64,000 bases of DNA, taken from positions 1 through 64,000 of the forward strand of contig CALLWB010000002.1 of assembly GCA_938016265.1 (NCBI GenBank), read 5' to 3'. The DNA comes from an uncultured Saprospiraceae bacterium. Its GTDB lineage: Bacteria > Bacteroidota > Bacteroidia > Chitinophagales > Saprospiraceae. Below, piece by piece: positions 6,188 through 41,117 of the stretch (the stretch's first letter is position 1; the number at the start of each line of letters is the position of its first letter). The notes beneath the pieces are model-generated. The model was given only the letters and a program-made list of their open reading frames with translations, did no database searches and was not told where the DNA came from. The translations under genes and the position numbers were made by a program.

Positions 6188-6374
6188 AAGTATAACGTTA
6201 CCCTTTCACCCATCAGTTAGAGGGGTTGACTCTTCAACATAAACTTCGTATATGGGGAGTAAAAACTAGGGGGGGACTTAGTACAATTTGTGAGAATAAA
6301 TGGAATATTTAGTTACTAAGTATCTAAGTCGTAAAGGCAATAGCGATCAATAACTTAAGGTCTTGACAACCAAA

Positions 6375-6671: not shown

Positions 6672-6858
6672 AATTTTTGGGGGTTACAGATACATTTTGA
6701 TTAAAAGTTCTACTACTATATATCATGAGCATCTTGTTTGTTACCCTTAAAACGATATTAATTTGTGAAATGTTATCCCCGAAAGAAAAAAAGCCGTCAT
6801 TTTAATGTCAGATTAACTAAAATCGTCTTTATTTAACGTTTATTTCACAATAAAACCT

Positions 6859-6888
6859 TTGAAGATACCTTTAGTAGATATACATTTG
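6859..6888 (+). promoter_or_regulatory. Bacteroidota-type promoter for the HmuY-like gene
   Basis: TTG at 6859-6861, a 19-base spacer and TACATTTG at 6881-6888, an exact fit to the -33/-7 pattern. The transcript would start near 6895, leaving a leader of about 58 bases. A purine-rich GGGAGGAG lies at 6930-6937, 15 bases before the ATG at 6953; that is a little far for a classical ribosome binding site. Confidence 0.65.
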
Positions 6889-6952
6889 TTGTGCGTTTTA
6901 ACACCTTTTTAACAAGCTGCTCCAAAATTGGGAGGAGAATTTGAACATACAT

Positions 6953-22911: not shown

Positions 22912-25900
22912 ATGCGATTCTTAAAATATATCATAATCTTCTGCTTAACAGGTACCTTAACCCCGGCAATTGGCCAGGACTACACTATCGATCTGTACCT
23001 GATTGAAGAGTGCGCCTACCAAGCAGATGAAGGCAACGGTTCAGAGCAAGTCTGGAATACAAGATGGGCATGGAGTGCAAATGAGTCCTGGTCTAGTTGG
23101 GATTGTACGAAAAGAACCATGGGTATTGGCTGTACCAATTGGTACCATCTAAATAATGGATTAGGCTTTTATTTCAGTACACGCAGTTATACTGGATCAT
23201 CAATTTCGCCAACAAGTGCCTATCTATATCTCGATTCACAAGGGTTTGAAAATGATTGGTGGGGAAGTTGCGATTATAATGGTGGAGATGATCATTTTGA
23301 TAACAACAGGAATTCTAACAACGCTATCTCTTCCACAAATATATTCAATAGTATTACATCTTTAAATTTCACAAATGTTATCAATGCAAATACTGGTTAT
23401 CACTTTAACAGAGAATATACAAACCTTTCTAGATATCGATTTACCTATAAAGTCAAATACAACGTCGCTGCACCACCCTACCTAAATGAAGTTGGAAGTG
23501 TAACCAATGCAAAGTGCGCAGGGGAAGGTATTGAATTGACAACGGAAAAACCTAGCAATCGTTGGAGCGGCCTTCGGTATAAATGGCAGTTACAAACAGA
23601 GTCTGCTCCATTTTCAAATATCTGGTCAGATCAAGGTAGCCCTAACTACAGTTATTCCAGTGACAATAACGAAGTGGTTTCAGCCCCTAGTGATGCCATT
23701 GTTCCAACAGGCAGACGTTTTCGCTATACAGTAAGATATGAAAAACATTCTGGAGTAAAAGTATTCCGATCACCGGAAATGTCTAGCGCTCCTTTCATCA
23801 AAGCAGCCCCCGCTGCATCAGATATCAGCTTCTCCAACACTAATATTACTTGCCAAGGAACACCTGGTCAAATTGTAGCAACAGCTACTGGAGGCGGTGG
23901 CAGTTATAGCTATTTTTGCAGATTTAATGGCACTGGAAACAATCAGTCGGTAACTATTAATTCTTCTGGGAGTGCCAATACATTTCCAGCAGCAAATGAG
24001 GGATGGTATACAATTACAACAACGACCAATGGAAATGAAGGATGCATCTATTCTGAACAAACCTATATCTCTGAAAACGTCCTGACCAAAACCGGCGAAT
24101 CCTTTACAGACGTTTCTTGCTTAAATGCCAATGATGCAAAAATAACTATTAGCTTTAGCGGAGGACTTGGCAATTATGATGTCGAATATACAAGTGATGG
24201 AGCAAATACATGGACAAATTCCCAAACAACGGCTGTAGGAGGAAATTACACTGTTTCTAATTTAGCCTCAGGTGCTACGCATCAAGTAAGAGTAATAGCT
24301 TCGGACGGTTGTATTATCAAATCAAGTACTTATACACCAACAAACCCAAGTGCAGTTACGGCTTCTATAACTGGATCTACTAATCCATCTTGCTATTTCG
24401 GTTCGGATGGGACCATTAGTTTAGACATATCTGGAGGAACACCACCCTATCAGATCTCCACCTATCAATGTGTTCCATCGATTGTTAGTAATTTGACTGT
24501 AGTCGGACAAGATGTTACCGGCCTTTCTGCTGGTTGCTATGAGCTTGTTGTTATGGATGCAAATGGATGTGAAAACAGTTCTTACCTTGAAGTAAGCCTC
24601 TTCAATCCTCTTCAATTTACAATGGATACAACCAACACAAAAACAAACCCATCATGCGGGGGTAATGGAGATGGAACAATAACGATCAATTACAGTGGTG
24701 GAACACCTCCTTATACTTATAAACTTAACAATACTATCGTCGGGAATGGATCAAACCTGAGTTATACCTATACAGGTTTGTTTGCTGGCTCCTATCAAGC
24801 AGAGGCTATTGATAGTAAGGGGTGTCAAATTATTGCGTTTTTTAGTTTATCTGATCCAAGCAACCTAATTTTATTTGTTGATAATGTCCTACCTGTTAGT
24901 TGCTTTGATATACCTACAGGAATGGAAGATGGGGCAATACAACTATCTGGTTTTGGAGGAACCCTCCCATATGAGTACTCGTTTGACGGAGGACAAACCT
25001 GGACAACATCATCTGACACTACAAACCTCAAGGATGACGGATACCAATGCATAGTAAGAGATGCTAACGGATGTACGGAGAACCAAACAGTTTATGTAGA
25101 CAGAAATGAACAAATTCTAGCCGTACTTAACGGAGTAGAAAGTCCAGGGTGTTATGGATATTTAGGGTTCGTCAGAATTCAACGGTTTGGTCGATCATCA
25201 GACTTTTCAAATCCTATTGAATATTACGACCAATGGCTGGTAAGCTCTGCCGGAGACACCATAGTTGCTGATTTTGCAGGGAATACAGATGTTTATTATT
25301 ACAGTCTTTTGCCAGATACTTATACCTTTACCATGATGGATACAGTGAATGGTTGTTTAGAAACAACATTCATTCCTCCTTTTACAATTACAGAACCAGA
25401 TTCGTTGTATTTAGAATTGGTTTCCAGCGCAGATAATCTCTGTAACAATGGCGCTACAGGAGAAATCGTGGTAGAAATAAAGGGAGGACAAAAACCACAT
25501 ACCGTTGCCGCTACAATTTCACAATCCGGCAATCCTTACTTCGACCCGATTACCACTGATAGTATAGTATATACGTTTAGCAATTTAGCGGCCGGCACCT
25601 ATGATGTAATTGTAGGAAATGATGAATCTATGGGTGCAAAAACAGCTAATTCTGCACCTACAGATTTTTACCTTTACAATTGTACAGATACCTTGACCGT
25701 AGTTATTGGAGAGCCTCAAGTCCTCGATGTCATCACGACCAATACAACTCCAAATGGTGTGGTAGGATGCGACCCGCCAGACGGGCAATTGACATCTGTA
25801 GTTACAGGAGGTACTTCTCCATATCGGTATTTACTGTTTGATAATAATATAGGATATATAGATACTATTCTAACAAATATTTTTGATAGTATACCGGCAG

Positions 25901-28900
25901 GTACCTACTATGTAGATGTGTTGGATGTAAATGATTGTCTCTTTTACGCTCCAACCTCCACAACGCTTGCCCCACGACCGCAAACGCTTCAGGCTCAGAT
26001 AGCCTATCAAACCGAAATTACCTGCCCTGGAGGTGATAATGATACTACAGTTGTCTCTGTCATACAAGGTAGTGAGCCAGATTCAGGACCTTACGAGTAC
26101 TCCACCGATGGCTTTAGCTTTTCTTCGCAAGACACATTTATAAATTTAGGTGCTGGAACCTTTGATTTTTTCGTGCGGGATACTTTTGGATGTATTGCTA
26201 CGATAAATCATGTTATTTCAGAACCATTTGCAGACGAATTAAGTGTATATATTGGCGCTCCACCTTCCTGCACCGACAACACCACCTACATTACGGTAGA
26301 TGGTATTGCCTTATCTAGTGCATTTCCTCATGCGATGTATTGGGTGTTGCCCGAAGGAGATTCCCTTTTACCAGGCTCTGAGTTCGAACTTGATTTTTAT
26401 GGGAATTCTTTCCATAGCGTTGAAATTCCCTTAAACCAATATCAGTTATTTTATATAGAGGATGGGAATGGCTGTCGTGTTTTTCTAGACACTATTGTAA
26501 GAACAACTACTCCGATAGTTCCTAACTTCGACATAACAAATGTCTCGTGTTTTGGCGAAGGAGACGGCGCCCTAACAGTAAATGCTTCTGGTGGAACTGC
26601 ACCGTATAGCTATTCCTTTGATGGTAATGCACCTAGTGTTCAAAATTCGTTAACCAATTTGAGTCCTGGACCAATTGTAGTAGATATCATTGATAGTGGT
26701 GGCTGCTCCTACAAAGAAACTATTTATATTGATGGAAGTACTTTTTTAGATCTTACACTAGCTTCTACGGTTGATGCGCTTTGCGGAACAGGAGGAGAAA
26801 TCCATGTCAACTCAGGTTATACCGACGGCCATGAATTTTCTTTAGACAGCATAACATGGCAATATGATACGACGTTCCTAAATGTAATCGCTGGAACTTA
26901 TGATGTTTTTGCTCGTGATACTGCCACCCTTTGTACAGAAACTATTTCAGTTACTATAAATGGAACAGGGAATGTAGCCTCCAACCCAACAGCTACAAAC
27001 AATTCCTGTAATGGAGAAAGTAATGGATCTGCCTCCGCTTTCCCTGCTTCAGGAACACCTCCATATACTTATCTATGGAGCAATGGAGCAACAGACAGAG
27101 ACATCAGCAATTTAGCAGAAGGTACCTATACCTATACAATTACTGACAATGCGGGATGTTCTGGCACAGGAAGTGTCACCTTAACCGACCCAACAATTTT
27201 AATAGCTACAGCTTCCGAGTCTATGGCCGCGGATTGTGGTGCTGCCACTGGAGATGCCTTTGTATCTATATCGGGAGGTACAGGAAATTATTCTATCATT
27301 TGGGATAACACCCCTGCACTTAATCAACAAACGGCTTCTGGTATTGCACCGGGAGTACATACTGTTTTAGTCACTGATGACAACGGATGTACTGCGACCT
27401 CTTCTACTACGATTACCAGTTCAGCAGGAATTAGTTTGTCCTTGGTCAATGCAGTAAACGATGCTTGTGGTAAGTCGATAGGTAGTGTAGAAGTTGCTCC
27501 TACTGGAGCGGCTGTATTCGAGTATTTCTGGGATCATGATTTAGCCCTGGATTCTCCAATCGCAACTGGCTTGCCAGCTGGCACCTATCAAGTTTTCGTT
27601 ACTGACGTGAATAATTGTACCGCTTCTTACGAACAGATTGTACTAGACGATCCAGGACCAAATTTAGGTTTCCCGATCCGAAACAACAGTATTTGTACAG
27701 ATGATAATGGAAGCATTATTTTAAATATCACAAGTGGAACACCTCCATATACCTACAATTGGGCACACACTGCCGACAATGTATCAACAGTAACAGGTCT
27801 GTCGGCCGGAAATTACATGTGTACCATTACAGACGCTAGAGGGTGTACCACAAACTATGATGATGGGATTGGATTTACTCCTGGGCCAATGGCTTCGATT
27901 GCCACCTCGACCAACACCACTTGTGGTCAAAATGACGGTAGTATTTCAGTCGCAGCAGCTATGGGCACTTCTCCCTATACATATGCATGGAGTCATTCCA
28001 CGACAGTGGCCTCCCCTACTGCAAATAATCTGGCCGCAGGAAACTATACTATAACTGTTTCGGATGCAAACGGATGTCCTTCAACTGTCGGGATAACCCT
28101 GACCAATTCGAATGGGCTAAATGCTTCGATCGGAACAGTCGTCAATAGTAATTGTGGGAACAACGATGGAAGTATTCAAGTCAATGCTTCTAATGGAATA
28201 CCACCATATACTTACAATTGGAGTCACGACAATATGATCACCACCGCATTGGCAAATGGCCTTTCGGCAAATGCTTATACCATAACAGTTACCGATGCGG
28301 CAGGTTGCGAAAATGTGCTTAACCAAACGATAACAGATACTCCAGCACCAACGTTATCCTTAACCAATGCAACAGATTCAGACTGTACTGAAGGCAACGG
28401 AAGTATTTCCTTAGCAGTAACAAGCGGAACGGCTCCATTTAATTATAATTGGTCACCTGCTGCTGCAAACAGTGCTTTGATTAGCAATCTAAATTCAGGT
28501 ACATATTTGGTGACGGTGACCGATGTAAATGGATGTACCGATACCTTTAGCCAAACGATACAATTTAATGCAAGTCCTGTTGCTTCAATTGGTTCTTCAA
28601 CAGGAACAACTTGTGGGCAAAATGATGGTAGCATAACTGTCTCTGTATCTGGTGGTGCAATGCCGCTTACCTATACATGGAGTCATTCCACGACAGTGGC
28701 AACAGCAACCGCTAACAACCTACTTGCAGGAGCTTACACTATAACAGTAACGGACAATAAAGGCTGTTCTTCGACTACAGGAACCACCCTATCGGATAGC
28801 AACCCACTGACCGCTGCTTTCATAAATACAGTCAATCCAACCTGCGGAGGTGCAAACGGAAGTTTGGAGGTAAGTCCTATGAATGGAACGGCACCTTACG

Positions 28901-31900
28901 TCTATAGTTGGAGCCATGACAATTTGCTATCTATACCAATTGCAAATGGACTGGGAAGTGGCTCTTATACCGTTACCGTAACTGACAATACTGGTGTTTG
29001 TACTACTATTTTAACTACGACTATTAACTCTGCAACAGGTCCTGCAGCTTCTACTCAAAATGTACAGAATTCCATTTGTGCAGAAGGGAATGGATCAATT
29101 TCAATAACAGTGGCAGGTGGAGCAATTCCTATTTCGTACTCCTGGAGTCACAATAATGGATTGAATAGTCCAACAGCAAACAACTTGATGTCTGGTAGTT
29201 ATACGGTAACTGCGACAGACAATAACGGATGCACCAGTATTGTTACTGAATCTGTTTCGTTGGAAGCAGCGCCGGCTATTTCTATTTCTTCTTCAACAAA
29301 TACAGCTTGTAATACTAATACAGGGACAATTTCCACCATTTCAAGTGGAGGAACAGCACCTTTCACTTATAATTGGAGTTCAGGAGACTCAGGACCAATG
29401 GCGACAGGATTAGATGTTGGTAACTATACTGTTACGATTACCGACGCAAATGGATGTACAGATACGGCCTCTGGAAATGTAAACGAATTTCCTTCTCCTA
29501 TGGCTAATATCAATATGGTTATAAACACCTCTTGTGGGCAATCTATTGGTTCAATTCAGGCGTCTGGTTTAGGAGGACTTCCTCCATACACTTTCTTATG
29601 GAGTAATTCTGCTACGACAGCAAGTATTAGCAATTTGCCTTCTGCCAGCTATACCTTAACGGTAACAGATGCTAATGGTTGCGAGGGTGTTCAAGTTGCA
29701 ACAATAAGTGATGCCGGAGGGCCTGTCATTTCTTTGATGACTTCTGCCAATGCTAATTGTGGACAGAGTACAGGATCAGCAACGGTAACTGTAAGTAGTG
29801 GCACTCCACCTTACAATTTTGACTGGCAGGACAATCTAACCAATACCGTCTCGACTACGAATACAGCAACTGGCCTGGCTCCAGGATCCTATAATGTGAA
29901 TGTTTCAGATGCTAACACCTGTCAAACAAATCTAACCGTTGTGATTGGAGATAATCCAGGACCAACAGTAAGCCAGGGTACAGTAATCGGAACCTCTTGT
30001 AATGGTGGCGCAGATGGTAGTGCAACTGCAACCGTAACTGGAGGAAATATTCCCTATCAATATTCATGGAGTAATAGTCAAACTACAGCAACCGCAACCG
30101 GACTGTCAGTAGGATCCTATAGCGTAACTGTGACGGATAATTTAGGATGTACAGAAACTCTGGGTGTTTCCATTTCAGAACCAGCAATGTTGAATGCTTC
30201 TGCTGGAGCAACTGTTGACCCGTCTTGTGCTGGGAGTAATGACGGTAGTGCAACGGTAAATGCAACTGGAGGAACAGGTGGACTTAGTTTTGAATGGAAT
30301 GATGCAAATGGACAATTAGGCGCTACAGCAATTAATCTACCCGCAGGAAATTATGTTGTATCAGTAACTGATAGTAATGGATGTTTGGCAACAGTAGGCT
30401 ACACGCTTACCGATCCAACAGCAATCAGTTTATCTACTTCTTCTGTCCAACCTACTTGTTTTGGTTCTATTGGTAGTGCAACTGCTAATGCAAGTGGAGG
30501 AACCGGAGCACTGAGTTATTTATGGAATGATACTAATAATCAGACAACTGCAACAGCAACAGGTCTGGCTGCAGGAACTTACATCGTGAGTGTTACCGAT
30601 ATGAATGGCTGTGTTACTACAGCTTCTGAGACACTGAGTTCTTCAAGTATGGTGATGCTTTCACAAGGATCTATAACCGAGGAGAGTTGTGGTGGAGGAG
30701 CAGATGGTGCAGCTACTGTGCTAGTTGCAGGAGGCTCCACACCTTACAATTACCTTTGGGATGATATGAATAACCAAACCACTGCAACCGCTTCTGGACT
30801 TACAGCAGGAAATTATATGGTATCCGTATCGGATTCGAATGGATGTTCTAGTACACTTGCTTTTGTTGTGAATGTTGCGCCTTCTATAACACTCAGTTCT
30901 GGAGGAACTCAGAATCCGGCTTGTGCAGGAGATAACACTGGGTCGGCAACTGTCGTTGCAGCAGGAGGAAGTGGAGTTTTCTTATATCTTTGGAATGATC
31001 CTAATGGCCAAACAAGTAATACTGCTACTGGCTTAGCAGCAGGTACGTACACCGTTACAGTAACAGATAATGTTGGTTGTAGTGAGACAACAAGTTTCAA
31101 CCTAACGGATCCGATGGCTTTAACTGGAAGTGCATCTATAGTTATGCAGCCAAACTGTCAAGGATCGCTGGATGGTATTGTAATGGTTGCCGCTTCTGGT
31201 GGTATTGGAACTTATACCTACTTGTGGAATGACGCTGCTAGTCAGAATACGGCTTCTGCAAATGGTCTCGCGGCTGGCAATTATACGGTCACGGTGTCTG
31301 ATGCGAATGGATGTTCCATTACGGCCTCGGTTATGTTGACTGCACCGCAATCTATTGTATTAACTCAGGGAACCGTTTCAGATGTTCTTTGTAATGGCAC
31401 CCAAACGGGAAGTGCTGCGGTAATTGCAGCGAATGGTGCAGGCGGGTATACCTATTTATGGGATGATCCTTCCTTCCAAATGACCGCAACCGCTACTAGT
31501 TTGGCGGTTGGAACGTATACTGTTTTAGTAACCGATATTAATGGCTGTACAGCGACTTTAGACTTCACCATAAATGAACCTGGTAGTTTATCGGTAAGCA
31601 ATTCTACTTCTACAAATATTTCTTGTAATGGAGATAATGACGGATCGATTTCCCTTACTACAAGTGGTGGAACATTGCCTTATACGTATTCCTGGAATAC
31701 CGGGGCTACTGCTTCTAGCATATCTAATCTCTCTGCTGGAAACTATAGCGTAAGTATTTTGGATGCGAATGGATGCAACATTAACGAAAGTTATACCTTA
31801 ACAGAACCTGATTTACTTGGTATCTCTGCTTCAAGCATAATAAATCCTGCTTGTGCGGGAGATAACAACGGTTCGATAACTGTTATAGCAAGTGGCGGAA

Positions 31901-33045
31901 CAACTCCTTATAATTTCAACTGGAGTGATGGGCAAACTGCTGCAACGGCAAGTAATCTTAGTCCTGGTAGTTATACCGTAACGCTTACAGATGCGAGCAA
32001 TTGCACGACCGTTCTTAGTGAGACACTTACTGGGAATACGGCAATCGCTATCACACTAGATATGTCAGGTGGTACCAGTTGCAATGGTGGCGCTGATGGA
32101 TTTGCAGTAGTGGAAGCTACCGGAGGAACTGGCGTTTATGACTTTGACTGGTCGAATGGGGCTACTGGCGAAAACGTAGTTGGCCTGGCAAGCGGCAATT
32201 ACATCGTAACCGTAACAGATAGTAATGGATGTACTTCTACCTTAGGTGTTGGAATATCAAGTGGTGGCGTCTTATCAGCAAATCTAGGAGACAATTTTGT
32301 CACTTTGTGTGAGGGAGAGTCCTTGTATCTGAATGCTGGTTTACCGAGTCTGAATTATACCTGGTCTTCTAGTACAGGATTTACTAGCTCAAGCAATGAA
32401 GTCATTCTTACAGAAGAAGCGATTTATTGGTTGGAGGTGGACAATGGGTCGGGTTGTATTGCCAGAGACACGGTTAATCTTTCGGTATCTTCAATAGCGC
32501 TGGATGCGTTGTTTATCATGCAATCGGAGGCGGTTGTTGGTGATACGATTTTTGCATCGGAAGTTTCCTGGCCGATCCCTGATTCGATTACCTGGAGTTA
32601 TAAAGTTGATAGTGTTGTCATTTATGAGACTATTGAAAACCAGCAATGGTTTATATTCCCGTACACGGGGTATTATGAAATAAGCTTAATAGCATACCGT
32701 GGCAACTGTATGAGCTCAATTACAAAAGACATTACGATTTATGCTGATCCTGGTGATTTGCAAGGCCCAGCGACTAATCCAGGATATACTGAAATATTGA
32801 ACTACACGCTATTCCCGAATCCGAATTCTGGACAATTTTCTGTGCGAATAGAGTTGTCTGATCCTCAGGATGTACAGTTGCGGATTTATGAGGTGGGTGG
32901 TGATCCGGTTACTACGTGGCAAGGAGATGGACAGACGATTTATCAGCCGGAGTTCAATCTGACGTTGCAGCCGGGGGCTTATGTTTGTGTGTTGCATACG
33001 TTGACGGAGCGGAAGACCTTTAATTTTATTGTGGCGAATCCGTAG
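22912..33045 (+). CDS. Giant SprB-repeat surface protein with T9SS type A sorting domain
   Basis: 3,377 residues. Signal peptide (cleavage near AIGQ, residue 22), a unique N-terminal region to about residue 390 rich in Trp, Asn and Ser, then about 34 SprB-type repeats counted by eye: 11 divergent ones (to about residue 1,358) and 23 regular ones of about 75 residues (about 1,359-3,112). Each regular repeat reads C-x-G-x-x-x-G-S-(a)-GG-(t)-PY-x-Y-x-W-(s/n), then a-x-x-L-x-a-G-x-Y-x-V-x-V-T-D-x-N-G-C. Two further Ig/PKD-like segments and a type A sorting domain (LFPNPNSGQFSVRIEL...LQPGAYVCVL) finish the protein, so it is exported by type IX secretion. SprB itself is a mobile gliding adhesin of Flavobacterium; unlike it, this protein has a type A signal and no SprF gene next to it. 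Probably a long adhesin or filament; role inferred. Confidence 0.92.
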   Translation: MRFLKYIIIFCLTGTLTPAIGQDYTIDLYLIEECAYQADEGNGSEQVWNTRWAWSANESWSSWDCTKRTMGIGCTNWYHLNNGLGFYFSTRSYTGSSISPTSAYLYLDSQGFENDWWGSCDYNGGDDHFDNNRNSNNAISSTNIFNSITSLNFTNVINANTGYHFNREYTNLSRYRFTYKVKYNVAAPPYLNEVGSVTNAKCAGEGIELTTEKPSNRWSGLRYKWQLQTESAPFSNIWSDQGSPNYSYSSDNNEVVSAPSDAIVPTGRRFRYTVRYEKHSGVKVFRSPEMSSAPFIKAAPAASDISFSNTNITCQGTPGQIVATATGGGGSYSYFCRFNGTGNNQSVTINSSGSANTFPAANEGWYTITTTTNGNEGCIYSEQTYISENVLTKTGESFTDVSCLNANDAKITISFSGGLGNYDVEYTSDGANTWTNSQTTAVGGNYTVSNLASGATHQVRVIASDGCIIKSSTYTPTNPSAVTASITGSTNPSCYFGSDGTISLDISGGTPPYQISTYQCVPSIVSNLTVVGQDVTGLSAGCYELVVMDANGCENSSYLEVSLFNPLQFTMDTTNTKTNPSCGGNGDGTITINYSGGTPPYTYKLNNTIVGNGSNLSYTYTGLFAGSYQAEAIDSKGCQIIAFFSLSDPSNLILFVDNVLPVSCFDIPTGMEDGAIQLSGFGGTLPYEYSFDGGQTWTTSSDTTNLKDDGYQCIVRDANGCTENQTVYVDRNEQILAVLNGVESPGCYGYLGFVRIQRFGRSSDFSNPIEYYDQWLVSSAGDTIVADFAGNTDVYYYSLLPDTYTFTMMDTVNGCLETTFIPPFTITEPDSLYLELVSSADNLCNNGATGEIVVEIKGGQKPHTVAATISQSGNPYFDPITTDSIVYTFSNLAAGTYDVIVGNDESMGAKTANSAPTDFYLYNCTDTLTVVIGEPQVLDVITTNTTPNGVVGCDPPDGQLTSVVTGGTSPYRYLLFDNNIGYIDTILTNIFDSIPAGTYYVDVLDVNDCLFYAPTSTTLAPRPQTLQAQIAYQTEITCPGGDNDTTVVSVIQGSEPDSGPYEYSTDGFSFSSQDTFINLGAGTFDFFVRDTFGCIATINHVISEPFADELSVYIGAPPSCTDNTTYITVDGIALSSAFPHAMYWVLPEGDSLLPGSEFELDFYGNSFHSVEIPLNQYQLFYIEDGNGCRVFLDTIVRTTTPIVPNFDITNVSCFGEGDGALTVNASGGTAPYSYSFDGNAPSVQNSLTNLSPGPIVVDIIDSGGCSYKETIYIDGSTFLDLTLASTVDALCGTGGEIHVNSGYTDGHEFSLDSITWQYDTTFLNVIAGTYDVFARDTATLCTETISVTINGTGNVASNPTATNNSCNGESNGSASAFPASGTPPYTYLWSNGATDRDISNLAEGTYTYTITDNAGCSGTGSVTLTDPTILIATASESMAADCGAATGDAFVSISGGTGNYSIIWDNTPALNQQTASGIAPGVHTVLVTDDNGCTATSSTTITSSAGISLSLVNAVNDACGKSIGSVEVAPTGAAVFEYFWDHDLALDSPIATGLPAGTYQVFVTDVNNCTASYEQIVLDDPGPNLGFPIRNNSICTDDNGSIILNITSGTPPYTYNWAHTADNVSTVTGLSAGNYMCTITDARGCTTNYDDGIGFTPGPMASIATSTNTTCGQNDGSISVAAAMGTSPYTYAWSHSTTVASPTANNLAAGNYTITVSDANGCPSTVGITLTNSNGLNASIGTVVNSNCGNNDGSIQVNASNGIPPYTYNWSHDNMITTALANGLSANAYTITVTDAAGCENVLNQTITDTPAPTLSLTNATDSDCTEGNGSISLAVTSGTAPFNYNWSPAAANSALISNLNSGTYLVTVTDVNGCTDTFSQTIQFNASPVASIGSSTGTTCGQNDGSITVSVSGGAMPLTYTWSHSTTVATATANNLLAGAYTITVTDNKGCSSTTGTTLSDSNPLTAAFINTVNPTCGGANGSLEVSPMNGTAPYVYSWSHDNLLSIPIANGLGSGSYTVTVTDNTGVCTTILTTTINSATGPAASTQNVQNSICAEGNGSISITVAGGAIPISYSWSHNNGLNSPTANNLMSGSYTVTATDNNGCTSIVTESVSLEAAPAISISSSTNTACNTNTGTISTISSGGTAPFTYNWSSGDSGPMATGLDVGNYTVTITDANGCTDTASGNVNEFPSPMANINMVINTSCGQSIGSIQASGLGGLPPYTFLWSNSATTASISNLPSASYTLTVTDANGCEGVQVATISDAGGPVISLMTSANANCGQSTGSATVTVSSGTPPYNFDWQDNLTNTVSTTNTATGLAPGSYNVNVSDANTCQTNLTVVIGDNPGPTVSQGTVIGTSCNGGADGSATATVTGGNIPYQYSWSNSQTTATATGLSVGSYSVTVTDNLGCTETLGVSISEPAMLNASAGATVDPSCAGSNDGSATVNATGGTGGLSFEWNDANGQLGATAINLPAGNYVVSVTDSNGCLATVGYTLTDPTAISLSTSSVQPTCFGSIGSATANASGGTGALSYLWNDTNNQTTATATGLAAGTYIVSVTDMNGCVTTASETLSSSSMVMLSQGSITEESCGGGADGAATVLVAGGSTPYNYLWDDMNNQTTATASGLTAGNYMVSVSDSNGCSSTLAFVVNVAPSITLSSGGTQNPACAGDNTGSATVVAAGGSGVFLYLWNDPNGQTSNTATGLAAGTYTVTVTDNVGCSETTSFNLTDPMALTGSASIVMQPNCQGSLDGIVMVAASGGIGTYTYLWNDAASQNTASANGLAAGNYTVTVSDANGCSITASVMLTAPQSIVLTQGTVSDVLCNGTQTGSAAVIAANGAGGYTYLWDDPSFQMTATATSLAVGTYTVLVTDINGCTATLDFTINEPGSLSVSNSTSTNISCNGDNDGSISLTTSGGTLPYTYSWNTGATASSISNLSAGNYSVSILDANGCNINESYTLTEPDLLGISASSIINPACAGDNNGSITVIASGGTTPYNFNWSDGQTAATASNLSPGSYTVTLTDASNCTTVLSETLTGNTAIAITLDMSGGTSCNGGADGFAVVEATGGTGVYDFDWSNGATGENVVGLASGNYIVTVTDSNGCTSTLGVGISSGGVLSANLGDNFVTLCEGESLYLNAGLPSLNYTWSSSTGFTSSSNEVILTEEAIYWLEVDNGSGCIARDTVNLSVSSIALDALFIMQSEAVVGDTIFASEVSWPIPDSITWSYKVDSVVIYETIENQQWFIFPYTGYYEISLIAYRGNCMSSITKDITIYADPGDLQGPATNPGYTEILNYTLFPNPNSGQFSVRIELSDPQDVQLRIYEVGGDPVTTWQGDGQTIYQPEFNLTLQPGAYVCVLHTLTERKTFNFIVANP
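26988..32247 (+). repeat. Array of 23 regular SprB-type coding repeats
   Basis: Tandem coding repeats of roughly 225-235 bases, each opening with a codon run for a single Cys and closing with Asn/Asp-Gly-Cys. Within it, repeats 13 to 22 (counting from the first divergent repeat) follow a three-unit cycle with a period of 690 bases: the segment at about 27909-28006 and the one at about 28599-28696 share long near-identical runs, including a 20-base identical core (TGGAGTCATTCCACGACAGT). Repeats 26-31 form another sub-group with W-(N/D)-D-x-x-x-Q. Confidence 0.85.
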
Positions 33046-34188: not shown

Positions 34189-34302
34189 AGGGTAAATTTA
34201 AGAAATAAGATCAAATTAAGAGGAGGGAAAGTGCCAATTGTATTATAAGTAATATTACTTACTCAAACACCTAACAGTCAGCAACTAAAAAAGGCATCCT
34301 TC

Positions 34303-34522
34303 AGCTTGTAAGGTTTCTTGGCTTTTTAACTAAAAAATGAATAGTAAAGTGTTGTATGCACAATGCTATTTATCTATCTTATAAAGTTGATTTTTATTTA
34401 CCTAAATATCTGATATTCAGTTTAAGCTTGTAAGATTTCTTGATTTTTTTAACTAAAATCAATTGATAAGATGTTGTGTGCACATTGCTTTTTGTCTACC
34501 TTTAGAGTGATATTTATATATT
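34303..34522 (+). repeat. Imperfect direct repeat carrying a duplicated promoter
   Basis: Two copies of a roughly 98-base segment, 34303-34400 and 34425-34522, offset by 122 bases and separated by 24 bases. By eye about three quarters of the bases agree. Shared landmarks: AGCTTGTAAG at the left end, a T-run followed by AACTAAAA, and a TTG...TGCACA...TGCT block. Each copy holds a promoter-like pair with the same 20-base spacing. The second copy ends 23 bases before the peptide ATG. Confidence 0.75.
34474..34504 (+). promoter_or_regulatory. Promoter of the serine-rich peptide gene
   Basis: TTG at 34474-34476, 20-base spacer, TACCTTTA at 34497-34504 (one mismatch to TAnnTTTG). The spacer contains the perfect 8-base palindrome TGTGCACA (34477-34484 region), a possible operator. 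The equivalent pair in the upstream repeat copy is TTG at 34352-34354 and TATCTTAT at 34375-34382, a weaker match. Predicted leader about 35 bases. Confidence 0.6.
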
Positions 34523-34545
34523 AATAAAAATAAAAACATATTGTT

Positions 34546-34704
34546 ATGATTAATTTAACAACTATCATCCAGAATCTTTCTGAAGAAAAAATCACTAAAA
34601 TTGTTGCAGCTGGAAGTACTTCATCTGAGTCTTCAGTATCTTCAGTATCTTCAGAGTCTTCATTGTCAAGTGAGAGTACTTCTGACGAAGATCCAATGGT
34701 ATAA
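34546..34704 (+). CDS. Serine-rich secreted peptide precursor (double-glycine-type leader)
   Basis: A 52-codon ORF with ATG at 34546 and TAA at 34702-34704. Residues 1-23 look like a leader for C39-type exporters: L11-S12-E-E-K-I-T-K-I-V-A-A-G23 fits the known L-S-x-x-(E)-(L)-x-x-I-x-G-G pattern, with A-A or A-G at the cleavage site in place of G-G. Residues 24-52 hold 15 Ser, 2 Thr and 6 acidic residues, with six tandem S-S-x tripeptides at residues 26-43, and no Cys, Lys, Arg or aromatic residue. A kinase with a peptide-recognition domain and a C39 exporter follow directly, which strongly supports this being their substrate. The absence of Cys rules out lanthionine rings. Phosphorylation of the serines is a hypothesis. 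Too short to be called by many gene finders. Confidence 0.82.
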   Translation: MINLTTIIQNLSEEKITKIVAAGSTSSESSVSSVSSESSLSSESTSDEDPMV

Positions 34705-34734
34705 TTAGTAAGAACTAAAGTTTATATCATTATT

Positions 34735-34768
34735 GTAAGGAGGAATTTTTTTCCTCCTTACTTATTTT
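34735..34768 (+). terminator. Hairpin terminator/attenuator after the peptide gene
   Basis: Perfect 11-base inverted repeat GTAAGGAGGAA (34735-34745) / TTCCTCCTTAC (34751-34761) with a five-T loop, followed by TTATTTT. It sits between peptide and kinase genes and should make the peptide transcript more abundant than the downstream enzyme and transport genes. Confidence 0.8.
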
Positions 34769-34833
34769 AGATAAATGATAAATCCTAGCCAAAACGAATC
34801 TGTTCTTTTCCGCCCAAAATCCCGCTGTAATAA

Positions 34834-36087
34834 ATGAGTGATGATCTCAGATATATCCTGTCTCCACAATATTCTATCCCGTCTGTAGAACAAGTTTTAA
34901 ACTCTTATTCAAATTTTAAAGATTTACCTGAAGAGTTAGAACAATTAAAAAACAACGAAGTCTTCTTTTTACGAAATGTAAAAGGGACTCAATTTTTAAT
35001 TAATCCAACGATAAAAATCTTTTTAGATGCTTTTCTTGAGCCAACCACCTTGTCTGCCGTAGTTAATTCATTTGCGAATCAAGCAAAAACAAGCCCAGAT
35101 CAAATCTTGCATGTCATGGAAACCTTTTTCCAAAGGTTGGTGAGTAGGAAAATTCTAGTAAAGGAAGAAGATGCTAATGCTCTTAAAAGTATTGTTAAGA
35201 AAGAAACTTTTACTAAGTCAAAATATCAAGTTGGCGATCAAATAGATAATTACAAAATAATCAATGAAATTTCGATTCGGAAATCAACTCAGCTATACCT
35301 TGGCCAACAGAACGAATCAGGAGATTTTGTAGTTGTAAAACTGCTTATCTTACCACAAGAATTAAAGGCTAGTTCAAAGAAAAAAAGTCTTCAAAAATTC
35401 CAACAAGAATTTAGTTTAATGAGTGAATTGCCTCCGCACCCAAATGTTTGTAGGCTGATAGATTATAATAAGGAGAGAAACTATGCAATTTTAGAGTATA
35501 TTGAAGGGAAGAGTTTAAAGAGAACGATTGAGGCTGGAACAGCTGATTTTACTAAAAGATTAAAGATTATTGATCAAGTATTGACCGCACTAGCCTTTGT
35601 ACAAGAACAAAATATAGTGCACGGTGATATTCATCTTAGCAATTTTCTGGTTACAGATAGTTTTCACGTAAAGTTAATTGACTTTGGTTTGTCGAATCAT
35701 AGTTCTCCTGATGAAAATGAAGTCATTAGAAATGGAGGCGTTTATGAGTGTATTCCACCAGAAAGAGCAAAAGAACAGGGAGGGTTTGGATTCTTAAAAA
35801 AAACATCAGACTTTCGATCAGAGGTTTTTCAGTGTGGGGTGCTTCTGTTTTACATCTTGTATAAAAAGTATCCTTTTTATGGATTTACCTGGAAAAAACT
35901 AGCGCAGTCTATTATCCACGACCAATTAGATTTTCCACAAAAGACCAATGAAAATGATCCAATTCCCACCTTCATACTAGAACTTTTAAATAAATCCTTA
36001 CAAAAGGATCCTATGGACAGATTTGAAAATGTTGGTAAAATGTTGTTATATTTCAAGGAAAATTCAGCCATCGAAATTCCAGATTAG
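34834..36087 (+). CDS. Protein kinase with N-terminal PqqD-like (RRE) domain
   Basis: 417 residues, no signal peptide or membrane segment. Residues about 35-110 (FFLRNVKGTQFLINPT...LVSRKILV) have the strand-helix pattern of PqqD-type RiPP recognition elements, which bind leader peptides. Residues about 135-410 are a eukaryotic-like protein kinase: ATP-anchoring lysine K169 in VVVKLL, helix-C glutamate probably E192, catalytic loop H263-G-D265-I-H-L-S-N270, and D283-F-G. The glycine-rich loop is degenerate (NEISIRKSTQLYL), yet all catalytic residues are kept. The catalytic loop H-G-D resembles kinases of class III/IV lanthipeptide synthetases, but the lyase and cyclase parts of those enzymes are missing. 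The obvious substrate is the serine-rich peptide just upstream. RRE assignment is by eye. Confidence 0.82.
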   Translation: MSDDLRYILSPQYSIPSVEQVLNSYSNFKDLPEELEQLKNNEVFFLRNVKGTQFLINPTIKIFLDAFLEPTTLSAVVNSFANQAKTSPDQILHVMETFFQRLVSRKILVKEEDANALKSIVKKETFTKSKYQVGDQIDNYKIINEISIRKSTQLYLGQQNESGDFVVVKLLILPQELKASSKKKSLQKFQQEFSLMSELPPHPNVCRLIDYNKERNYAILEYIEGKSLKRTIEAGTADFTKRLKIIDQVLTALAFVQEQNIVHGDIHLSNFLVTDSFHVKLIDFGLSNHSSPDENEVIRNGGVYECIPPERAKEQGGFGFLKKTSDFRSEVFQCGVLLFYILYKKYPFYGFTWKKLAQSIIHDQLDFPQKTNENDPIPTFILELLNKSLQKDPMDRFENVGKMLLYFKENSAIEIPD

Positions 36088-36092
36088 GAAGT

Positions 36093-38522
36093 ATGTCCAA
36101 ACTACTAGACAGACAATTGAGGAAAAATGACTGCGGAATAAGCGCAGTAAAAACAGTATGCAACATTCTGAATGTGGATATTGATCGACGTGCTATAGAA
36201 GACGATATCTATATTGCAGAAGAAGGATCCTCCTTGGGTAGTTTAAACAAGTTTTTTAATAATTATGGATTTGAAACCGCTTATAAGCTAATTGACTTAA
36301 ATACCATCAATGGTAATCAAGCGGATTTAAACGAAATGTTCCCATGTATTGTTCCTGTTAAAGGAAAAAAAGGACTTCACTATATCGTCATAAATAGCTT
36401 GAAGAAATACAAGTTTAAAGTCTTTGATCCAGGTAAAAAAAGACCTTACGAACTATCTGTTGAAGAATTAAAGTCGAAAGTAGTTTTTAACAGCTCTGCT
36501 GTGGACTTCATCGATGTAAAAGATTCGCTCAAGTTTCAAGTAGATAAGTACCTTACGGAATATAAGATTTCGCTTCCTACAAAACCAAATGAAGGCCAAC
36601 TAGTCGAACTCTTTAACAAGCTAGCCTATTTTTCCTACATTGATGAAAAGTTTGGGTTTAAGGATAAAACGGCAGGTCAGAACTTCTTGAAAGATTTGAT
36701 TTTTCATCAGGAGCTAAAGCATATCCCTAAACATTTTGAGGAGGTTGTTTTTGAAAAGAATAAACTAAAATTTAAGGCGCCGGTTTTTTTATCCATAAAA
36801 AAGACGGAAGAAACAAAAGAAGTCAAAGGTAGCTCCTCTGAAAACGTGTATTGGACGCTATTTAAAACAATTGGATCGATCAAGTCTATTTGGTTTATTT
36901 TTCTGTTTACAACCATTCTGGCGTCCATGATTTCCTATGTAGCGGTTTTTATCAATCAAATTTTGATCGATCATATCTTGCCTACCTATCAGCTCAATAT
37001 GCTGAGAGCGTTTGCATTTGGAGTAGGAATTTTTTACTTGGTGGAAATGGCATTCATGATCTATAGAAAATTTGTTTCTATCCATCTTTCCATTGCTTTC
37101 GATAGATATTTCATGAAGGTTTTTGACGATAAACTGACTAACTTTTCCATTCGTTTTCTTCAAAGTTATCGGCGTGGAGATTTGACCGAAAGGTTACGGG
37201 ATAGTTTGAAATTGAAGTCTTTTTTTACTAGGCATTTTACCAGTGTCATTGTTGATGTGATAATAGCATTAACATCTATGTTTTTCCTGTTTATGATCAA
37301 CTGGAAACTGAGTCTGCTTGTACTTGTTGTCTTAGTTTTGTTTACCGGATTGTTTTACATTTTTACACCAATTATTGCAGATCTTGAACGACAACGGTAT
37401 TCCAAAAAGGCTGATTTCATGTCGAAATTTATCGAAAAGATCGAAGGCATTCAGACGATAAAAGCGATGGGGTTGGAACAGCATTCCAGCAACCAAATTC
37501 TTTCTAGTATTGATGATTTAATTTTGGTGCAAACCAAGTCAAAATACGTTGGGCTTATCAATTCTGTTTTGACAAAACTCATCACGACGTTTGCCGCACT
37601 TTCTATTCTTATTCTAACTGCCAGAGAAATGATTGTTTTCAATTCAATTACCTTAGGAATGATCATTACCTTCTTAGCATTATCTAACAAAATTTTTAGA
37701 GCATTTGGTAAACTCCTAGAGAAGAATCTAGTTATACAGGAACATAAAGTTATACTAAAACGATTTCTTTCCTTTGAGGAAAATTCGCTTAACCCAAATG
37801 AGGAAATAAGAGAAGCAACAGTCCGAGCGAACAATCAAAATGAGATAAGAAAATTTGAATTTAAGGACTTAAACTTAGAAGACGTTTCTTTTTCCTACAA
37901 TGATGAGAAGAACATTGTAAAAGACGTGAATCTAAAGATTTCTAGAAATGATAAAGTACTCATTCAAGGCAAGAATGGATCCGGCAAGTCTACGCTTTGC
38001 AAAATATTAGGCCTGCTCTATAAACCGACTAGTGGGGAAATTCTATTAAATGATATTCACACCAGTCTTTATAACCAAAAGAAACTAAGAGAGAAGATTG
38101 TCTTTGTTTCTGGAGAGGATATTCTGTTTAATGAAACCTTAATGTTTAATATCTCCTTTGGTAAACAAATCGACATGGAGACTTTTATTCGCTATTGCAA
38201 ACAACTAGAACTTTACGATTTTATTGTCAAGCGGCCAGGGGGATTTGATTTTATGATTTACGAGAATGGTAAAAATCTATCCACTGGACAACGAAAGAAA
38301 GTATTACTTTTAAGGGCTTTAATGACCAAGTCACACCTCCTTATTTTGGATGAAATCTTCAATGGAATGGATAAAGGGTCAAAGGCAAAAGCAGAATCAC
38401 TAATCAATTCAATAAAGGATAGAACCTTCCTCATTATTTCACATATGGACGCAGAGGGCATAATGTTTAACAAAAAATTCGAAATAAAAAATGGCTTATT
38501 ACTCGATAAACAGACCAAGTAG
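36093..38522 (+). CDS. C39 peptidase-containing ABC exporter
   Basis: 809 residues with three parts. Residues 1-125: C39 peptidase with Q8, C14 (NDCGISAVK), H96 (LHYIVI) and D112 (FDPGKK), i.e. complete catalytic set. Residues about 260-540: exporter membrane domain with about six helices. Residues about 590-805: ATPase with Walker A GKNGSGKST, signature LSTGQRKKVLLLRAL and Walker B LLILDEIF. An insert of about 130 residues between the peptidase and membrane domains (125-255) is longer than in typical bacteriocin exporters. Proteins of this kind cut the leader after a double-glycine-type site and export the core peptide. It starts 5 bases after the kinase stop and overlaps the next gene by 32 bases. 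Confidence 0.95.
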   Translation: MSKLLDRQLRKNDCGISAVKTVCNILNVDIDRRAIEDDIYIAEEGSSLGSLNKFFNNYGFETAYKLIDLNTINGNQADLNEMFPCIVPVKGKKGLHYIVINSLKKYKFKVFDPGKKRPYELSVEELKSKVVFNSSAVDFIDVKDSLKFQVDKYLTEYKISLPTKPNEGQLVELFNKLAYFSYIDEKFGFKDKTAGQNFLKDLIFHQELKHIPKHFEEVVFEKNKLKFKAPVFLSIKKTEETKEVKGSSSENVYWTLFKTIGSIKSIWFIFLFTTILASMISYVAVFINQILIDHILPTYQLNMLRAFAFGVGIFYLVEMAFMIYRKFVSIHLSIAFDRYFMKVFDDKLTNFSIRFLQSYRRGDLTERLRDSLKLKSFFTRHFTSVIVDVIIALTSMFFLFMINWKLSLLVLVVLVLFTGLFYIFTPIIADLERQRYSKKADFMSKFIEKIEGIQTIKAMGLEQHSSNQILSSIDDLILVQTKSKYVGLINSVLTKLITTFAALSILILTAREMIVFNSITLGMIITFLALSNKIFRAFGKLLEKNLVIQEHKVILKRFLSFEENSLNPNEEIREATVRANNQNEIRKFEFKDLNLEDVSFSYNDEKNIVKDVNLKISRNDKVLIQGKNGSGKSTLCKILGLLYKPTSGEILLNDIHTSLYNQKKLREKIVFVSGEDILFNETLMFNISFGKQIDMETFIRYCKQLELYDFIVKRPGGFDFMIYENGKNLSTGQRKKVLLLRALMTKSHLLILDEIFNGMDKGSKAKAESLINSIKDRTFLIISHMDAEGIMFNKKFEIKNGLLLDKQTK

Positions 38523-39744
38523 TCATAAGTTAATTAAAACTTTATTTCTCATTTTTTTTATGGCTACTATTTTGGTATTTTTTCTACTATTTACCTTAAA
38601 AGTAAATATTACCGCTGAAGCATCTAGTGGCGAAATAGTTGCTGGTAATACACCTGTCAAGTATTTAGCTCCTATGGAGTGTCAAATCGAAAAAGTACTT
38701 GTAAAAGAGGGAACACAAGTCAAAATAGGAGACACCTTGGTTATCCTGAGCAACAGAAAGTTGGACGAAGACATTCAAAATACAGAAAGTAGCCTGAATG
38801 CCGTAACCACCAATTTGAATTTTTACAAGCGTCAACTAAACAACCTCCAACAAAAAATCAGTAAAGAAAAACAAGCTCAAGGTTTTGTCGACGAACAATT
38901 CAAAACAAAAGACTCTGGACAACAACTAGAATTGGAAAACATCCAAAACCAATTTCGCGTCCTTCAGGATAAATTTGAAGTGAGCAAAAAAAATCTCGCA
39001 CAAAACGCTGAATTACTCGAGAAAGGGGGAATCAGTAAACGAGAATACGAAAACCAGTACCAAGCATATTTGGATGAAGTTAACAAGATCAATCAGGCTA
39101 AGAATGAGCTTAATACGCGCCTTTCAGCGAAAAACGAAGCGAAATCAACCATGGAGCTAAAAATTAATGATCGGAATATCAATGTCCTCAACCTCGAATC
39201 TGAATTTATCAATCAACAAAATGTCCTTCAAAAGGAATTGCTCCAAAAAGAACAGTTAAAGGCAACACTGCAAACTCTTAGAGAACAAAAGAATCAGCTA
39301 GTCATCATTGCTGACAAACTAGGTTATGTAGTCGATTTGTTTAACTCAAACAATGAAGTTAATTTTCTACAGAAAAATACTAAAATACTATACCTATCGC
39401 CAAATACAGGACAACAGTTTTATGCAAAATTAGCGATTAAGGAAAGTGAAATAAGAAACATTAAACCCGGCCTGCCTGTCCACATAAAGCTCAAGGCATA
39501 CAATCATTATCAATTTGGTATTATAAAAGGGGAGATACAACATGTGGACAAGAAGTATCCAAACAACAAATCTGAACCCGATAATAGTAAGGATCAATTT
39601 TATGTCATCGCAACGATCCCAGAGCAAGAAGCACAGAAGATAAAACTTAAAAACGGGTTTAAAATTAGTGGCGAAATCATCTTAGAGGAAGTCACTTTAT
39701 CAAAATTTATCCTAAATTCCCTTTTTCGTAAAATAAACAACTAA
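38491..39744 (+). CDS. HlyD-family periplasmic adaptor
   Basis: 417 residues. One N-terminal membrane anchor (about residues 14-36), a lipoyl/barrel-sandwich half (YLAPMECQIEKVLVKEGTQV), a long Gln/Lys-rich coiled-coil hairpin (about 90-280) and a second barrel half with the C-terminal beta-barrel. This is the membrane-fusion protein that links an inner-membrane exporter to an outer-membrane channel in type I secretion. It starts inside the exporter gene (32-base overlap), which points to translational coupling; a downstream ATG at 38560 would cut the membrane anchor and is unlikely. Confidence 0.92.
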   Translation: MAYYSINRPSSHKLIKTLFLIFFMATILVFFLLFTLKVNITAEASSGEIVAGNTPVKYLAPMECQIEKVLVKEGTQVKIGDTLVILSNRKLDEDIQNTESSLNAVTTNLNFYKRQLNNLQQKISKEKQAQGFVDEQFKTKDSGQQLELENIQNQFRVLQDKFEVSKKNLAQNAELLEKGGISKREYENQYQAYLDEVNKINQAKNELNTRLSAKNEAKSTMELKINDRNINVLNLESEFINQQNVLQKELLQKEQLKATLQTLREQKNQLVIIADKLGYVVDLFNSNNEVNFLQKNTKILYLSPNTGQQFYAKLAIKESEIRNIKPGLPVHIKLKAYNHYQFGIIKGEIQHVDKKYPNNKSEPDNSKDQFYVIATIPEQEAQKIKLKNGFKISGEIILEEVTLSKFILNSLFRKINN

Positions 39745-39746
39745 AC

Positions 39747-41117
39747 GTGATAAAAAAAGCTAACAGGCATATCTCAATTTCTAGAATCCACCAAGCGGTG
39801 CCTGGTGTTCAGTATGTTTTATGCTGTTTGCTCTTTTTGTTTAGTCAGCTAGGTTCTTCCCAACAAGTCCTTTCCTTGTCGCAGGCGGTTCAACTTGGCT
39901 TGAATAATAACTTTGACATCAAGCTCTCCAAGTTAGAATTGCAATCTGTCCAAAATCAAGTAAATATCAAAGTACCGGAAGGCATACCAAGTATCAGATT
40001 AAAACTAGACCAGATCAATCGAGCCAGTTTTGACGGTTCTCCTACATCCTTTGTAGATGGTAACTACACAAAGAATGAAATCAGTGGCGGCATCGATCTC
40101 GATTGGGTCTTATTTCACGGCTACAAAGTAAGAATCAATAGAACAAGACTGACTGAATTGGAAAACCAGGGTAATGGGAATCTTCAAATCGTTATAGAAA
40201 ATTCTGTATCTGCAATTGTGCTGGCTTATTACAAAGCATTAATCGAAAAAGAAAAATTAGAGTTCAGGAATGAAGTTGCCTCCTTTTCCATAGAAAAGTA
40301 TGAGAATGCCAGACTTAAGTACAACTATGGTGAAATAAGTAAATTTGATCTCTTCAACTTTCAAGACGCACAGTTGAGAGATTCTGTTAGCTTGATGATT
40401 CAGGCAAATAACTACAAAGAGGCTACGACCTTACTAAAGACCTTGATCGGAATTGATAAATTTGAAGAAATTGTCCTCTCTGACAATTTAGAGTTTGCAC
40501 TCAACAGTTATGACTACGCTGTACTAAAACGCAAAATGGTCTTCTCTAATCAAGAAATTAGAAATCAGCTCGTTAATATCAGACTTCAAGAAAGCATCAC
40601 CCAATTGGCCAAAGCAGAGCTAATGCCAAGGGTCTCCTTGAGAAGTGGGATAAGCGAAGAATTGAGCAGCTCCAAATTTTCTGGTGATGAAAGAAGAGAA
40701 GCTGGTGCCGTATTTGATTCCTATCTTAATTTCTCCCTTAGCTACCAGTTGTTTAACAAGCGTGACATGAACCTGAAAATTCAGAAAGAACAAATGAACA
40801 GGCACTACCTGTGGCATCAAAAGGAAACCCTGATCTCTCTATTAGAGGAAAGACTTAAAGTCAACTTTGACAAATACAACACCTACACTACGATCATTCA
40901 GATGGGAGAAAGAGTTGAAGCTAATCTCGAAAAAAATCTTGATATCGCAGCTTCTCGGTTCGAATCCGGTATTTCCTCCTTCCTAGAACTTAGAGACGTT
41001 CAAGTGAGACTTATTGAATCTAAATTAGACCTACTTGAAGCCGTTTTTGAGTTGAAAGTCGCCGAAACTGAAATTATTAGATTGACAGGGGGGATTTTGA
41101 AAACCTATGAAAAATAA
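39747..41117 (+). CDS. TolC-family outer-membrane efflux channel
   Basis: 456 residues. The reading frame begins with GTG at 39747, two bases after the stop of the adaptor gene; another GTG at 39798 in front of VQYVLCCLLFLF would give a more compact signal peptide and is a fair alternative. After the signal peptide (ends near GSSQ) comes the TolC pattern LSLSQAVQLGLNNNFDIKLSKLEL, long alpha-helical segments, and the second half repeat NLEKNLDIAASRFESGISSFLELRDVQ. It completes a C39-ABC / HlyD / TolC export route from the cytoplasm to the outside for the serine-rich peptide. Confidence 0.92.
   Translation: MIKKANRHISISRIHQAVPGVQYVLCCLLFLFSQLGSSQQVLSLSQAVQLGLNNNFDIKLSKLELQSVQNQVNIKVPEGIPSIRLKLDQINRASFDGSPTSFVDGNYTKNEISGGIDLDWVLFHGYKVRINRTRLTELENQGNGNLQIVIENSVSAIVLAYYKALIEKEKLEFRNEVASFSIEKYENARLKYNYGEISKFDLFNFQDAQLRDSVSLMIQANNYKEATTLLKTLIGIDKFEEIVLSDNLEFALNSYDYAVLKRKMVFSNQEIRNQLVNIRLQESITQLAKAELMPRVSLRSGISEELSSSKFSGDERREAGAVFDSYLNFSLSYQLFNKRDMNLKIQKEQMNRHYLWHQKETLISLLEERLKVNFDKYNTYTTIIQMGERVEANLEKNLDIAASRFESGISSFLELRDVQVRLIESKLDLLEAVFELKVAETEIIRLTGGILKTYEK

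Follow-up and report, generated by a model that had tools for sequence, protein, structure and literature searches.

What is made by a run of genes in which a small serine-rich peptide is followed by a protein kinase and then by a complete export route? The run in question lies in a 64,000-nucleotide stretch of DNA from an uncultured Saprospiraceae bacterium (contig CALLWB010000002.1 of assembly GCA_938016265.1, positions 1 to 64,000), referred to here as the window. Open reading frames (ORFs) re-derived from the window place five genes in a single run on the + strand, encoding a 52-residue precursor peptide (34546..34704), a 417-residue kinase (34834..36087), an 809-residue C39 peptidase/ABC exporter (36093..38522), a HlyD-type periplasmic adaptor (38491..39744; HlyD_3 in Pfam) and a TolC-type outer-membrane channel with a GTG start (39747..41117; OEP in Pfam). 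Precursor and kinase are separated by 129 bases; the gene order, the 5-base gap between kinase and exporter, the 32-base overlap of the exporter and HlyD genes and the 2-base gap between HlyD and TolC, all given in the original prediction, were re-derived exactly. It is probable that the locus encodes a pathway resembling those of ribosomally synthesized and post-translationally modified peptides (RiPPs), in which a leader-reading kinase phosphorylates multiple Ser/Thr residues of a peptide that is then cleaved by a C39 peptidase and exported. The leader would dock on a RiPP recognition element (RRE) domain fused to the kinase, and docking would bring the disordered core to a Hanks-type catalytic site, where many core Ser/Thr residues would be phosphorylated; the C39 domain of the exporter would cut the leader at an Ala-Ala-Gly motif, and the C39-ABC/HlyD/TolC conduit would release a linear polyphosphopeptide outside the cell. 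We infer leader binding, phosphorylation and its sites, cleavage and export. The locus has the parts by which RiPP loci are recognised, namely a ribosomal precursor, a conserved leader, a variable core and an adjacent putative modifying enzyme.

Judged by its sequence, the precursor is a real gene. Its Ser+Thr fraction after residue 22 (0.57) is the highest among the 251 window ORFs of 40-110 amino acids, the next being 0.39. As originally described, it has 52 residues and a core free of Cys; 17 of the 29 core residues that follow G23 are Ser/Thr, and the core likewise contains no Lys or Arg and uses the Ser codons TCT, TCA and AGT. Its (SSx)6 run, which in part reflects a 9-base DNA repeat, was matched by none of 20000 shuffles of its own letters. 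A homologous precursor (L003:7719-7877) lies in a syntenic operon in a Saprospiraceae metagenome-assembled genome, L003, where the leader MINLNSIIKDLSSEKITKIVAAG is followed by a divergent Ser-rich core (21 Ser/Thr of 29; no Cys, Lys or Arg). The (SSx)4 run of the L003 core was matched by 185 of 20000 shuffles, and that of another relative, L034, by none of 20000. Between the window and L003, the ratio of nonsynonymous to synonymous divergence (dN/dS; Nei-Gojobori, rough values in view of synonymous distances of 0.65-1.97 and short peptides) is 0.20 for the leader and 0.71 for the core; the corresponding values for the other genes are 0.17 (kinase), 0.05 (exporter), 0.06 (HlyD) and 0.10 (TolC). 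Between these two closest loci, then, the leader appears to be constrained, while the core appears to drift and yet remain Ser-rich. None of the precursors matched an NCBIfam model better than E 0.1.

The association of leader-bearing peptide and kinase recurs. Across 396 genomes of the order, a profile search gave matches at 1e-25 in 34; relatives in which the match spanned the N-terminal domain of the kinase are rare, occurring in six of these genomes (G000, G1089, G098, G009, G195 and G1095). The six distinct loci with such an RRE-kinase are the window, L003, L033, L034, L035 and L056; G1089 holds the L003 contig, and its locus (L036, L055) was excluded from the counts as lying on that same contig. 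All six have a small same-strand ORF, whose hydrophobic leader ends in AAG, RAG or GG, 52-139 bases 5' of the kinase. The more distant precursors begin KKKKKNKKNKEKSAKSSESSISSISS in L034 (14 Ser/Thr and 11 Lys/Arg of 45), WGKQKKSKSKSGGASSSSGGG in L033 (20 Ser/Thr and 10 Lys/Arg of 68), KHGKTKTRTKTKTKTRTRTRTR in L035 (10 Ser/Thr and 13 Lys/Arg of 29) and KHHGGHGKSKGHGKSSGKSKGHGKSKGY in L056 (5 Ser/Thr and 11 Lys/Arg of 49), the start codons of the last two being uncertain. The proposal that a Ser-rich ORF would recur beside kinase homologues therefore holds for the leader-bearing ORF (6/6 loci) and in part for its composition: cores are Ser-rich in 4/6, while L035 has (K/R)T repeats and L056 a KSK/Gly core. 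Because the cores change while sharing phosphate acceptors, often mixed with Lys/Arg, the sequences suggest that the kinase is steered by the leader and not by the core sequence. Double-glycine leaders have hydrophobic residues at positions -12, -7 and -4 and GG, GA or GS at -2/-1. The window precursor presents L11, I16 and I19 at these hydrophobic positions if Ala-Ala is placed at -2/-1, and both A22 and G23 are candidates for the residue after which the leader is cut. The double-glycine-type leader first proposed can be refined in one respect: the motif at which cleavage would occur reads AAG in the window and L003 and RAG in L034, whereas GG is present in three distant loci, L033, L035 and L056.

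For comparison, 29 distinct plain kinases were kept from 50 loci, after exclusion of 11 without a recognised kinase ORF, 3 with a start outside the stretch and 7 duplicates. A small ORF of some kind lies just upstream of 19 of the 29, and one gave a weak hit (0.34) with an ORF that shares 4 bases with the start of the kinase and itself looks like a kinase N-terminus. Under a scoring rule written after the precursors were known, core scores of at least 0.4 were reached by 5/6 RRE-kinases vs 0/29 plain kinases. L064, considered as a possible further member, was rejected as a plain kinase with HRD. In wider samples, a single-protein search of 395 phylum and 395 class genomes (overlapping samples) matched no genome but the window's own at E<=1e-28; a profile search of the phylum genomes gave matches at 1e-38 in 26, and among the matches listed only that of the own genome begins before residue 107. 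These genome searches score only the best few candidates per genome (often 4) and may overlook members. In viral contigs, all reported matches (12 loci) begin at residue 127 or later and none covers the N-domain, and plasmids gave no match at 1e-20. L033, in genome G098, was counted once despite two further small ORFs 5' of the kinase (L033:8997-9653; ORFs at 8997-9212 and 9414-9653), which have a common ISD(A/P)ATF C-terminal ending; a GG leader and a TTTDTTTTDT tract mark the second. These may be additional substrates or a partner peptide.

The N-terminal ~120 residues of the kinase likely adopt an RRE/PqqD-like fold, and the PqqD-like domain originally suggested there is supported by structure prediction. 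Residues 1-124, modelled alone from an alignment of six sequences, gave a mean local confidence (pLDDT) of 85, with predicted strands at 7-9, 44-48 and 53-56 followed by helices at 58-65, 73-83 and 88-104; the model thus shows the strands and helices, three of each, expected of the peptide-binding winged-helix fold that characterises RREs. When PDB chains were re-aligned to the model with VIA-align 2, for which a Z below 8 may mean a common arrangement only, the first and the third to ninth matches were RiPP proteins, the best being TigE (Z 10.0, 3.1 Å over 91 residues), and the second was a putative regulatory protein of Neisseria (Z 9.1). Two proteins solved with leader were among them: TbiB1 (Z 8.9, 2.6 Å over 86 residues, of 88 in TbiB1; also 8.7, 2.3 Å over 82) and TfuB1 (Z 8.0, 2.4 Å over 84). 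Heterocyclases (Z 7.8 and 7.7), NisB (7.7) and PqqD (7.5) followed, and then MccB (7.5) and ThcOx. We take these matched RiPP proteins to carry RREs. Foldseek likewise ranks similar proteins at the top, and a profile of the N-domain run against PDB sequences placed a PqqD-family protein third and TfuB1 fourth of nine (E 0.31 and 0.40). Pfam PqqD matches four of the six RRE-kinases at E up to 5 (best 0.00096). From the predicted fold, the domain would grip its cognate leader.

The remainder of the kinase (~135-410) is a Hanks-type domain (Pkinase, 2e-30 in Pfam) that looks active on sequence grounds. Lys169, Glu192, Asp265, Asn270 and Asp283 are invariant in 6/6 RRE-kinase homologues; these are presumably the catalytic Lys, the Glu, the catalytic-loop Asp and Asn and the DFG Asp, and they make the Hanks-type catalytic residue set complete, with HGD (containing Asp265) replacing HRD. 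The closest solved structures are the bacterial Stk1, PknB and PknA.

The exporter combines a C39 domain (Peptidase_C39, 8e-16) with ABC membrane and ATPase domains (ABC_membrane and ABC_tran in Pfam), as in the C39 exporter family, and its putative catalytic Cys, His and Asp are conserved in 4/4 aligned exporters. Relatives at E<=1e-90 occurred in 2 of 149 genomes, both with an RRE-kinase, and G195, a third RRE-kinase genome, has a relative at 1e-186. The exporter adjoins the kinase on its 3' side in the window, L003, L034 and L035, while the L033 contig stops after the kinase; read by eye, TolC follows HlyD in the window, L003 and L035, not in L034. The ABC part distantly resembles MsbA (177 bits, cut-off 602). 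Between the C39 and membrane domains, ~138 residues (36477-36890) have no Pfam match, and this linker carries an NK(L/V)xYF(S/T)Y..E.FGF motif in all four aligned exporters. By reading, the G098 contig also has a separate C39-ABC gene (L033:1722-3923) and a HlyD-type gene (4880-6889) ~3.5-8.6 kb upstream of its RRE-kinase; this exporter gene is not among the 1e-40 matches to the window exporter.

Several observations weigh against a leader-guided phosphopeptide pathway. The Pfam PqqD match to the window kinase is sub-threshold (E 0.1; 13.4 bits vs a curated cut-off of 23.4), the best Foldseek match to the N-domain is at 0.03 with none at E<=0.001, several of the VIA-align 2 matches lie below Z 8, with chains without a known RiPP link (GATOR1, a methyltransferase) appearing from Z ~6, and the model has two extra helices (18-24, 33-39) between strands one and two. 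The glycine-rich loop of the kinase looks degenerate, parts of its activation segment were modelled with low confidence, and the cleavage motif is other than GG in three loci. L056, in genome G1095, is the least typical member: its kinase has DFD for DFG, of the 49 residues in its core only 5 are Ser/Thr and 3 are Cys, no exporter adjoins the kinase and none related at E<=1e-40 is present in its genome, and its score of 0.33 is no better than that of the lone control hit. The timing of the control scoring rule also counts here.

Four other readings of the locus must be set beside that of a phosphopeptide pathway. The phosphate could be an intermediate that a lyase encoded elsewhere eliminates to dehydroalanine or dehydrobutyrine, as in class III-V lanthipeptides, leaving a dehydrated or cyclised product. 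This is unlikely, although LanKC-type kinases phosphorylate Ser/Thr as a first step (PMC10604976), the kinase is weakly similar to class III LanKC (E 1e-14) and Cys occurs in 3/7 putative cores (the first ORF of L033, L034 and L056). None of the five pathway proteins has a lyase or cyclase domain by Pfam, in agreement with the original prediction, the cores of the window and L003 have no Cys, and the solved kinases nearest to the domain are those named above. Class V-like dehydration was rejected, since searches of the source genome for HopA1 and LANC_like, each positive in 1/14 control genomes, found neither; a search of that genome for the OspF (VRP3) lyase gave nothing, its controls being equally silent. 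The kinase fold could also transfer AMP, glutamate or another non-phosphate group, or modify residues other than Ser/Thr. Kinase folds with other chemistries are known, the cores of L034, L035 and L056 are rich in Lys/Arg, and the degenerate glycine-rich loop fits such a change; set against this are the invariance of the five presumed phosphotransfer residues, again the PknB, PknA and Stk1 neighbours, and the fact that Ser/Thr are the sole abundant acceptors in the window and L003 cores, which makes the idea improbable in our view.

There is a small chance that the kinase regulates the exporter or the cell and that the peptide is an unmodified C39-exported bacteriocin or signal. The fusion of an RRE-like fold to the kinase, the position of the kinase between precursor and exporter, and L056, where a precursor adjoins a kinase with no exporter beside it, all speak against it by tying the kinase to the peptide and not to the exporter, even though unmodified double-glycine peptides are common and relatives of the kinase domain without the N-domain are widespread (among 248 genomes of the order searched, 35 matched, and in 31 of these no match extends into the N-domain). 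It is very improbable that the locus is a defence or toxin system based on a Ser/Thr kinase: PADLOC kinase models do match the kinase domain, at best with 3e-36, but the best 25 of 33 matches are confined to the generic kinase domain (residues ~120-410), only the ATPase part of the exporter matches PADLOC, and this reading was rejected accordingly. For the phosphopeptide pathway, the anatomy described in the original prediction was largely right and its mechanism is plausible.

The DNA around the precursor holds two further features. Upstream, two 81-nt copies (34300-34380 and 34422-34502; span 34300..34502, + strand) are 74% identical and 122 bases apart, and each contains the semi-palindrome TTGTRTGCACAWTGCT. 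No third match to this pattern, which was derived from the same two copies, was found in the window at <=2 mismatches (0.18 expected by chance), and no comparable pair was reported upstream of the L003 precursor. This candidate promoter or regulator-binding region is possibly an operator pair for a regulator. Between precursor and kinase lies an 11-bp stem-loop with a T-rich tail (34735..34761, + strand), terminator- or attenuator-like (1 found vs 0.2 expected; z -4.2). Its arms are identical in L003, and the exact pattern is not present in L033, L034, L035 or L056. The stem-loop may raise the ratio of precursor to kinase, letting the peptide be made in excess of the enzyme. The flanking genes, a rhomboid-family gene upstream on the opposite strand and, downstream, a 199-residue ORF with no Pfam match followed by a DUF5916/CBM9 gene, do not look like pathway parts. 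Farther upstream on the same strand as the locus, 22912-33045 encodes a protein of 3377 residues that carries SprB repeats in 18 stretches (SprB, 1.5e-196) and a secretion-system C-terminal sorting domain. In the source genome (7.44 Mb, 146 contigs) the full kinase is single-copy, the one other match at 1e-3 being a 74-residue stretch of a different protein, and no second precursor copy was found at E<=1.

The concept of a stand-alone phosphopeptide is no longer undescribed, as first suggested, since a 2026 paper reports Linear Polyphosphorylated Peptides (LPPs) from Bacillota (PMC13381572). As described there, the kinase of LPP systems is HprK-like, and their RRE is discrete and goes with a YxxP-type leader motif; an archaeal-type signal peptidase, an MsbA-like pump and a nucleoside triphosphate (NTP) transferase are also present, and several phosphates are placed on a single residue, Ser3 (PMC13381572). 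What the window locus would share with LPP systems is a linear RiPP whose leader is conserved and whose core varies, together with an RRE, a kinase, a peptidase for the leader and an exporter of the ABC type; phosphorylation is the primary modification of LPPs and would be that of the window peptide, and neither system has a macrolactam cyclase (PMC13381572). The window locus differs in its Hanks-type kinase fused to an RRE-like domain, its C39 exporter with HlyD/TolC and its many putative Ser/Thr acceptors, and an NTP transferase is not among its five genes. It would work like an LPP system, yet it is not one, because the defining parts (HprK-like kinase, discrete RRE, SpI peptidase and MsbA-like transporter) are not among the five genes. 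Like LanKC and LanL of classes III and IV, it would have a Ser/Thr-kinase-like domain act on a leader-bearing peptide; unlike them, its proteins have no lyase or cyclase domain, and an RRE is predicted. The relevant passages of PMC10604976 describe lyase and cyclase domains in class III enzymes and report no identifiable RRE in class II-V lanthipeptide enzymes. The lack of lyase and cyclase domains in the five proteins, with neither HopA1 nor LANC_like found in the searched genome, speaks against placing the locus in lanthipeptide classes III, IV and V. Phosphorylated lantibiotics of oral streptococci are also secreted peptides with stable phosphorylation, but they are lantibiotics, and the word kinase does not occur in the text concerned (PMC13219514). 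Paeninodin-type lasso peptides likewise combine phosphorylation with an RRE-bearing RiPP cluster, but with a lasso cyclase and an HprK tailoring kinase of a different family (as summarised in PMC13381572).

The literature offers no exact precedent in the texts covered: no report of an RRE-fused kinase was found among the open-licence PMC papers listed, judged by title and start of abstract. The word kinase is absent from the main texts of two RRE surveys, PMC7470986 (RRE-Finder) and PMC12710340 (2025); because 1,158 Pfam domains are reported alongside RREs in the latter, its tables may include a kinase fusion. In the text of a Bacteroidales RiPP survey, the listed passages on kinases concern histidine kinases (PMC10352776).

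Ser-rich biomineral phosphoproteins such as phosphophoryn, caseins and silaffins have SSx- or KS-type low-complexity cores, and are eukaryotic and made in the secretory pathway. They share such cores with the window family, the link to mineral being an analogy only. CotH is an atypical kinase. In Bacillus subtilis spores, this one kinase polyphosphorylates likely disordered Ser/Lys/Arg-rich repeats of CotB and CotG, which are similar in composition to the L033, L034 and L056 cores but are proteins of the spore coat rather than leader-bearing peptides served by a C39 exporter (PMC7821199). By likeness to these SKR repeats and to phosphophoryn and silaffins, a metal-, mineral- or matrix-related role can be suggested for products that would take the form of (pSpSx)n peptides and Lys/Arg-phosphate polyampholytes. 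It is a tentative and rather doubtful proposal that a new Bacteroidota RiPP class makes secreted phosphophoryn- or silaffin-like polyphosphopeptides that bind minerals or metals or form a matrix and are not antibiotics.

In summary, a reasonable case can be made for giving the locus a RiPP class of its own, on condition that phosphorylation is demonstrated. If the proposed pathway is correct, bacteria would reach stand-alone phosphopeptides by no fewer than two routes assembled separately, one based on HprK (the LPPs of Bacillota) and the other on a Hanks-type kinase (in Bacteroidota). This second kinase would be guided by the leader, tolerant of sequence and able to phosphorylate whole Ser/Thr tracts, and is possibly a tool for making polyphosphopeptides. 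The family would also provide a tractable system for the roles of phosphopeptides outside bacterial cells, with the cores of its relatives as ready substrates.

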